Assembly: GCA_022565805.1 (NCBI GenBank)
Contig: JAIULZ010000020.1
Location: forward strand, 1-42,046
DNA length: 42,046 bases
Reading direction: 5' to 3'
Source: Balneolales bacterium
GTDB lineage: Bacteria > Bacteroidota > Rhodothermia > Balneolales > Cyclonatronaceae
Made by a program: the position numbers and the translations under genes. Shown one piece after another: positions 27,886 to 29,381 of the stretch. The notes under the pieces were generated by a model, which was not told where the DNA came from, ran no database searches, and worked only from the letters and a program-made list of their open reading frames with translations. Numbering within the stretch: position 1 is the stretch's first letter; every line of letters starts with the position of its first letter.

Positions 27886-28272
27886 TTAATTTTCGGTGGG
27901 GATATCTGTTTCAATAATGAATTCGCGAACAGGCCTGCCGCCTATCAGATGCTCTGCAATAATTCTCTCCAAAACATCCGGAGTGCAGGAATGGTACCAA
28001 ATGCCTTCTGGGTAAACGACCGCAACCGGACCTCTTTTGCAGATTCTGAGACAGTCGGCTTTTGAGCGGTAAACTCCGCCGGCCCCGCTAAGACCAAGTT
28101 CATCCAGCCTTCTTTTAAGGTATTGCCAGGAAAGGGTTCCGATTTCAGGACGACAACACTTCGGGTTGGTAGGCTCGGCACAAATAAAAATATGGCGCTT
28201 TATTTTGTCTAAATGCAGTTCACGCGCCTTATTTGCCAGTCGTAGTTTTAAAAATTCGGATTGATCGCCCAT
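27886..28272 (-). CDS. Thioredoxin-like [2Fe-2S] ferredoxin
   Basis: Small electron carrier of the thioredoxin-fold (Shethna-type) [2Fe-2S] ferredoxin family. The family pattern of four cysteines is present: C31 in HIFICAEP, C39 or C40 in NPKCC, then C74 and C78 in [10 protein letters not shown], followed by the signature [14 protein letters not shown]. At 128 aa it is slightly longer than the usual 100-110 aa because of a charged N-terminal extension ([18 protein letters not shown]). The extra adjacent cysteine (C39/C40) leaves the second ligand ambiguous. No redox enzyme is adjacent, so its partner is unknown. The start is ATG at 28272. Confidence 0.88.
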
Positions 28273-28526
28273 TGCGCGCAGAAGAAAATCTTTGATTAAT
28301 ACATGTAAGATATCAAACTAATGAAAATTAACCTCTTTTCAATCTTTGAAACCCAGAATGAAAAAAAATCTGTTATCCGGTGTTGCAATACAGCCAGAAA
28401 CCTGAATACTCATCTATTTATACGCTCGTTCTTAGTTTGGTATAAACCGGTATCTTACATAAAACTCAATGTATTTATTTTGATAGTTTCATTGCTTTAT
28501 AAAAGCATTGAAAATAGATATTCAGA

Positions 28527-28607
28527 AGAAGGCTTTGAAAAGCTTCTATTTTGTTCGTATTCGACGCTGGAGAAGACGAGCAAGAGAGTGGTTTTGCAAA
28601 GCCTTCC
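28527..28607 (+). repeat. Composite inverted-terminal repeat element, copy C (81 bp)
   Basis: The shortest complete copy and the only one reading on the plus strand. The left end is AGAAGGCTTTGAAAAGCTT then CTATTTTGTTCGTATTCGA. The right end is AGAAGACGAGCAAGAGAG then TGGTTTTGCAAAGCCTTCC. It keeps both ends of the 141-bp copy B but lacks about 60 internal bases, as an internal-deletion derivative would. Confidence 0.72.
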
Positions 28608-28750
28608 AGAAAACTTGGTACTAACATATTTAAATAAAAGCTTATAAAAATTTAGCCGTTTTCCGTATCAAAACCAGGACGCATCAGCCGAACAGCCCAT
28701 TGACAGACAAATACCCGGTTTTGCAAGATTATCAATTAAAGTATTCATCC

Positions 28751-28804
28751 AACATCAACATCAACATCAACATCAACATCAACATCAACATCAACATCAA
28801 CATC
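28751..28804 (+). repeat. Hexanucleotide tandem repeat (AACATC)9
   Basis: Nine perfect tandem copies of AACATC, 16 bases before the ATG of the TlpA-like gene. The tract lies in the leader or promoter zone and not in a supported coding frame. Perfect short tandem repeats at such positions are prone to slippage and can alter expression. Confidence 0.95.
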
Positions 28805-28820
28805 ATTACCATTACTACTC

Positions 28821-29381
28821 ATGCAGAACAAAACGCCCCTTATTTTCCTCTTTTTAATCTTGCTAATGCTACCCCTTTACCTTGTAACGCGAGAGCCGGC
28901 AGGTCCGGAGGATTTTCCCTCTTTATTTACCCGTGATGTAACAAATCCGGAAAATTTTGGTGATGAGCTCCCGCAGGCGCCGGATTTTGAGCTTGTAGAT
29001 ATGGAGGGTAATATTTTTAGACTGTCGGATAATCGCGGCAAAGTTGTTGTGCTTAACTTATGGGCTACATGGTGCCCGCCCTGTCGCGAAGAAATCCCGG
29101 ATTTCATGGAGTTACAAGAGGAAATGCAGGGTGATGTTCTTTTTGTAGGCGTTTCTATAGACCGTGAAGGCTGGGATGTAGTTCGGCCATTTGTTGAGGA
29201 AATGCAGATAAACTACCCACAAGTAGTAGACGACGGACGTTTTACCCGGCTTTATGGCCCGATTCGGGGCGTTCCAACTACTTTTTTAGTTAACAGAGAA
29301 GGGTATATCGAAGGTTTTGCTCCCGGCATGCTTCATAAAGAGCAGCTGCGGCCCATGCTCGAAGCCATCGCTGCTAAATAA
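28821..29381 (+). CDS. TlpA/ResA-family membrane-anchored thioredoxin
   Basis: Envelope thiol:disulfide oxidoreductase with a reducing-type active site, C85-P-P-C88 in VVVLNLWATWCPPCREE. An N-terminal signal anchor (about residues 6-22, LIFLFLILLMLPLYLV) is followed by a linker and an AhpC-TSA/Redoxin-type domain, starting PQAPDFELVDMEGN. The cis-proline is in IRGVPTTFLVNREG. At 186 aa it matches ResA/TlpA proteins that keep apocytochrome cysteines or other envelope thiols reduced; the exact client is not evident. The ATG at 28821 has no Shine-Dalgarno sequence and directly follows the AACATC tract. It may share a transcript with the SpoIIE-type gene 186 bases downstream, although the functions are unrelated. 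Confidence 0.92.
   Translation: MQNKTPLIFLFLILLMLPLYLVTREPAGPEDFPSLFTRDVTNPENFGDELPQAPDFELVDMEGNIFRLSDNRGKVVVLNLWATWCPPCREEIPDFMELQEEMQGDVLFVGVSIDREGWDVVRPFVEEMQINYPQVVDDGRFTRLYGPIRGVPTTFLVNREGYIEGFAPGMLHKEQLRPMLEAIAAK

Follow-up and report, generated by a model that had tools for sequence, protein, structure and literature searches.

The hexamer tract and its surroundings

The stretch of DNA analysed here, 42,046 nucleotides long and hereafter called the window, constitutes a single contig in a draft Balneolales genome made up of 290 contigs and 4,466,289 bases. On its forward strand, directly upstream of a gene for a thioredoxin-like protein, lies a perfect hexamer tract, delineated with TRF and by reading of the sequence. 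The maximal period-6 stretch spans 28750–28805 (56 bp, 9.33 copies of CAACAT, 100% identity, score 112), and 15 bases separate its end from the start codon. The first-pass annotation had placed nine uninterrupted AACATC units 16 bases before the ATG, and this was read correctly, with the nine units at 28751–28804 and the ATG at 28821; the maximal stretch is only slightly longer than had been described. From base composition only, such a stretch would be expected by chance about 4e-24 times per 4.47 Mb. Being composed of perfect head-to-tail short units well above chance, the tract is a microsatellite, ordinary in kind.

The spacer between the tract and the ATG, TTACCATTACTACTC (28806–28820, forward strand), is free of G and, judged by eye, may hold decayed repeat units. 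At the other end, the 5′ flank TTAAAGTATTCA (28736–28747, forward strand) resembles by eye TTAACTATTCA, found before the ortholog of the congener G003, and is possibly the remnant of a promoter; the likeness is weak and a profile scan did not recover it. DNA structure of the opposite strand was also looked for, and none was found.

The downstream gene (28821–29381, forward strand) encodes a product of 186 aa, in whose translation an N-terminal hydrophobic segment and a WCPPC motif are seen. Pfam matches to AhpC-TSA (3.1e-25) and Redoxin (5.4e-21), along with a thioredoxin-like match, complete the picture of a thioredoxin-like domain with CxxC and an N-terminal anchor. Among NCBIfam models, ResA scored best with 95.1 bits (cut-off 170) and TlpA reached 79.1 bits (cut-off 230). 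No NCBIfam model matched (ResA, TlpA, StoA and DsbE were tested) attains its curated cut-off for this product, and therefore no name finer than TlpA/ResA-like membrane-anchored thiol-disulfide oxidoreductase is justified. The earlier view of a slippage-type, apparently non-coding tract directly 5′ of an envelope thioredoxin-like gene agrees with the reading frames and with these Pfam matches.

In the divergent orientation, a 2Fe-2S ferredoxin-like gene of 128 aa is located at 27886–28272 (reverse strand), the same neighbour being found in G001 and G003. Within the 548-nt gap separating the two genes we noted an open frame of 108 aa (28321–28647, forward strand), whose Pfam match is sub-threshold only (Hyccin, E 0.0026) and which is probably not a gene. 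No known RNA family was detected in the window at gathering thresholds.

Comparison with congeners

Close orthologs of the thioredoxin-like gene, with 66–70% identity, were found in four of five congeners, each species being represented by one genome; the fifth, G002, whose genome is 89% complete, gave distant matches only. None of the four orthologs is preceded by a repeat of 14 bp or more within 300 nt 5′ of it. That the ferredoxin-like gene is retained next to the thioredoxin-like gene in both G001 and G003 marks the locus as homologous. The relatives lack the tract at the corresponding sites, and on these sequences it is specific to the host lineage. We infer that it originated by slippage.

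Both flanks of the tract were aligned with the congener upstream regions and evaluated against 300 shuffles. For the 5′ flank, equally good shuffles numbered 8 of 300 with G003, 14 of 300 with G004, 67 of 300 with G005 and 111 of 300 with G001. This similarity is weak, because two of the four congeners give no support and the G003 alignment falls 5′ of the conserved element. For the 3′ flank, there was no significant similarity to the congener upstream regions, as 63 to 284 of the 300 shuffles were as good.

The conserved element in question, TAAyTATnyAGkAATA-like and located 2–10 nt 5′ of the ATG, is common to the orthologs of the four congeners. It was unrecognisable in the intergenic region of the window, where the best profile score was 1.96, the median for sampled null sequences being higher (2.15). 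The host genome is also devoid of the element at a second gene, which carries it in G003, G004 and G005. We considered that the tract had displaced this regulatory element and rejected the idea, the absence not being attributable to the tract because the second host gene lacks the element as well.

Repeats elsewhere in the genome and in other genomes

A genome-wide search with AACATCAACATC returned 8 matches, every one inside the tract, and the reversed control pattern returned 1 + 2 matches. Within the order, (AACATC)4 is present in one of 128 genomes. As background, TRF was run on 61 stretches totalling 1,242,046 bases (about 28% of the genome) and detected 45 arrays that do not overlap, of which 23 have a period of 12 or less. 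Among the latter the tract has the top TRF score, and it is the sole long hexamer seen in the sampled 1.24 Mb. Twenty of these 23 short-period arrays were placed against ORFs, three remaining unplaced, and 16 of the 20 are intergenic. Because the same genome has other intergenic microsatellites, with units of 5–9 bases, the tract is one of a modest population rather than a singular object.

A second leader microsatellite, of period 7, was observed at L249:2565–2603, where (CTGATAC)5.6 ends right before the start codon (ATG) of a gene for a D-2-hydroxyacid dehydrogenase. Moreover, the host genome carries heptamer arrays with drifting units (CAGGTAA/CAGGTAT, CTGACCT/CTGACTT, CCTGCTA and CAGTAGT). 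Such arrays lie at contig starts (L176:1–97, L179:32–90, the first 200 bases of L230, L232:111–152 and L234:1–53) and also at L187:2135–2189. Of 40 contig starts, 5 carry such an array, compared with 1 of 4000 internal stretches of 200 bases, an enrichment from which it follows that the draft assembly breaks at long heptamer arrays. Similar heptamer arrays exist in G005 (L195 and L197).

Beyond the order, a scan of GTDB for (AACATC)5 gave at least 117 loci, holding 119 tracts. Among the 119 tracts listed, a partial sample in which genes were simply called as ORFs, 72 fall within ORFs of at least 100 aa (37 in the AACATC sense and 35 in the GATGTT sense) and 47 are intergenic; a start lies within 100 nt downstream of 6 tracts on the mRNA strand and of 3 on the opposite strand. 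A family of AACATC leaders across GTDB was also considered. None is visible among the tracts listed, because these are mostly in ORFs and few stand before starts (6 vs 3), and the hexamer has no clear tie to leaders. Among the literature entries listed, which cover part of the matches for AACATC tandem repeats, none reports this tract.

Leader structure and translation context

The 79 nt before the start codon (28742–28820, forward strand) form a G-free stretch that is predicted to be unstructured and is probably the 5′ leader of the gene. In a sample of 521 leaders it ranks first both for its G-free run (79 nt) and for its folding energy, predicted at 0.0 kcal/mol against a median of −12.0 kcal/mol. 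When the number of units is varied from 0 to 15, the predicted mean unpaired probability around the start moves from 0.83 to 0.89. Because predicted accessibility of the start is nearly constant over this range, tuning through leader structure appears unlikely from the modelling. The earlier proposal that slippage would alter leader structure is not borne out, as the leader is predicted to be unstructured at each copy number from 0 to 15. In addition, steps of six bases leave the reading frame unaffected.

As to how such leaders may be translated, no Shine-Dalgarno enrichment was found in the host genome, AGGA occurring at the right place in 17 of 520 leaders and at the control place in 19; G also drops before the starts in these 520 leaders. 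The same two features, absence of Shine-Dalgarno enrichment and less G before starts, are described for Bacteroidetes (PMC3155529).

Discussion

The interpretation that we find probable, albeit with some reserve, is that of a lineage-specific microsatellite that has expanded in a largely inert 5′ leader, where it is likely to vary in length with nearly neutral consequences. Slipped-strand mispairing would have made the tract grow in the probable leader of the TlpA/ResA-like gene, whose mRNA would belong to those translated from an unstructured leader, with no requirement for a Shine-Dalgarno site. A G-free hexamer would lengthen this leader and add no structure to it, and it may be for this reason, we propose, that the tract is tolerated there. 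Copy number would then probably drift with little effect on expression. The location of the tract within the transcript, its length variation and its near-neutrality are what we infer; the sequence leans towards a tract lying 3′ of the promoter, within the leader, variation in copy number is plausible, and a function of tract length is unsupported. Two observations count against an inert leader, namely that this leader is extreme and not typical (first of 521), and that it holds nine ACA triplets, more than any of the other leaders, a count equally compatible with a selected enhancer.

Perhaps, then, each AACAUC adds one more enhancer site of the ACA/S1 type, and slippage shifts the yield of the thioredoxin-like protein stepwise in the manner of a translational rheostat. 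We regard this as unlikely, and its stricter form, at which the AACAUC unit would itself be a landing unit for the ribosome or S1 and slippage would grade protein dose leaving frame, promoter and RNA structure untouched, as slightly less likely still. ACA triplets are indeed clustered here, with nine at 28750–28820 where none of 519 other leaders has more than 6, and the host genome has no Shine-Dalgarno enrichment. Support from elsewhere comes from two papers. In Salmonella, ACA motifs enhance translation, their effects being additive and not strictly tied to position, and the same paper cites an ACAA repeat as favouring initiation where a Shine-Dalgarno site is lacking (PMC3879156); for Bacteroidetes, S1 binding to unstructured leaders has been proposed (PMC3155529). 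Yet ACA is under-represented in the leaders of the host (378 seen vs 447 expected, z −3.2) and in those of G005 too (z −2.1), which counts against a general role of ACA as an enhancer, and the four congener orthologs manage without the tract. The first-pass annotation had also suggested that six-base steps act via promoter spacing, with the tract in or between promoter elements and transcription altered as in phase-variable genes, and this we consider quite unlikely. In fact, repeats upstream of a gene can matter, since tracts of this kind change transcription of uspA2 in M. catarrhalis (PMC7302503) and of sabA in H. pylori (PMC4081817). It is likewise conceivable that the promoter lies 3′ of the tract, as the congener element stands so close to the ATG. 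However, a scan limited to sigma-70-type promoters gave 0 promoter-like pairs, shuffles giving 4.0, so that none is found in the 15 bases between tract and ATG, and the 3′ flank is without significant similarity in the congeners; promoter spacing thus finds no support. The usual gap between promoter boxes is shorter than 56 bp, and the tract exceeds it. The Bacteroidota promoter consensus is −7/−33, and it showed no positional peak in 520 leaders of the host genome, where no clearly positioned promoter motif was observed either. Moreover, a survey of four H. influenzae genomes gave no evidence of phase variation driven by hexanucleotide repeats, which were judged not to act in this way (PMC2651432).

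Translation of the tract itself, whether as a Thr-Ser extension from a non-standard start or as part of an upstream frame (TTG 28700) overlapping the gene, is scarcely credible. It is true that the frame of the gene is open back to 28740, that hexamers keep the frame and that a 78-aa frame from TTG 28700 passes through the tract. Nonetheless, the frame of the gene has no ATG, GTG or TTG from the stop at 28737 to 28821, the orthologs share this ATG as their start or begin close to it, and the 78-aa frame has no Pfam match; a coding role of the tract, as judged from these frames, is unlikely. Very improbable, too, is that the copy number, or the tract as a whole, is an artefact of assembly. The draft is in 290 contigs and breaks at repeats, as the heptamer arrays at contig starts indicate, yet ordinary short reads are long enough to contain 56 bases, and G001 and G003 have the same flanking pair of ferredoxin-like and thioredoxin-like genes. 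The exact assembled copy number may nevertheless be a consensus.

The tract can be compared with several known systems. One likeness is with gor of M. catarrhalis, encoding glutathione disulfide reductase, at which a long-unit microsatellite also lies directly 5′ of a thiol-redox gene: the octamer (GACTGTTT)n is located 25 bp upstream and ranges from 2 to 17 units between strains (PMC7302503). The gor repeat differs in being an octamer from another phylum for which several strains were compared, whereas our tract is a hexamer from one genome. The length of the octamer was not observed to vary within either of the two strains tested in that study, which calls for caution before such tracts are called switches (PMC7302503). 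The (AGAT)n repeat of uspA2 in the same species resembles our tract in standing 5′ of a gene for an envelope protein, where its length could step expression; however, it is a tetramer located 132 bp upstream, with a measured effect on mRNA of up to 3.37-fold (PMC7302503). The heptamer repeats of Xanthomonas and Nostoc are similarly intergenic, with units of 6–9 nt and many of them within 50 bp of ORFs, but they form G-rich multi-copy families, unlike the host array, which is single and has no G on the strand of the gene (PMC4692102). Finally, the ACA enhancers of yifK and dppA share with our tract the clustering of ACA triplets 5′ of the start codon; these genes have Shine-Dalgarno sites, tested function and no perfect microsatellite (PMC3879156).

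As a single microsatellite confined to one lineage, the tract would chiefly be of use as a possible strain marker. Were copy number, on the other hand, to set translation, this would amount to phase variation via ribosome recruitment in organisms without Shine-Dalgarno sites, and the non-frameshifting hexamers that were dismissed as non-switching in H. influenzae (PMC2651432) would be worth re-examining.

With regard to the congener upstream regions, a partly palindromic sequence, TAACTATnCAGnAATA, was observed 5′ of the thioredoxin-like gene in G003, G004 and G005, and with one mismatch in G001. It recurs in the opposite orientation, in G003, G004 and G005, before the gene for a small DUF6132-like membrane protein (the DUF6132 match, with an E of 9.9e-5, narrowly misses the Pfam cut-off). 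In G005 the copies are at C1:405713–405728 and 3246514–3246529 (L256 and L262), and further ones are at L259, L260, L265, L266 and L269. In G001, a second copy lies 5′ of a SIR2-like gene, named by eye. In the host genome, neither the thioredoxin-like gene nor the DUF6132-like gene is preceded by it. The element could be an operator belonging to a redox or sulfur regulon.
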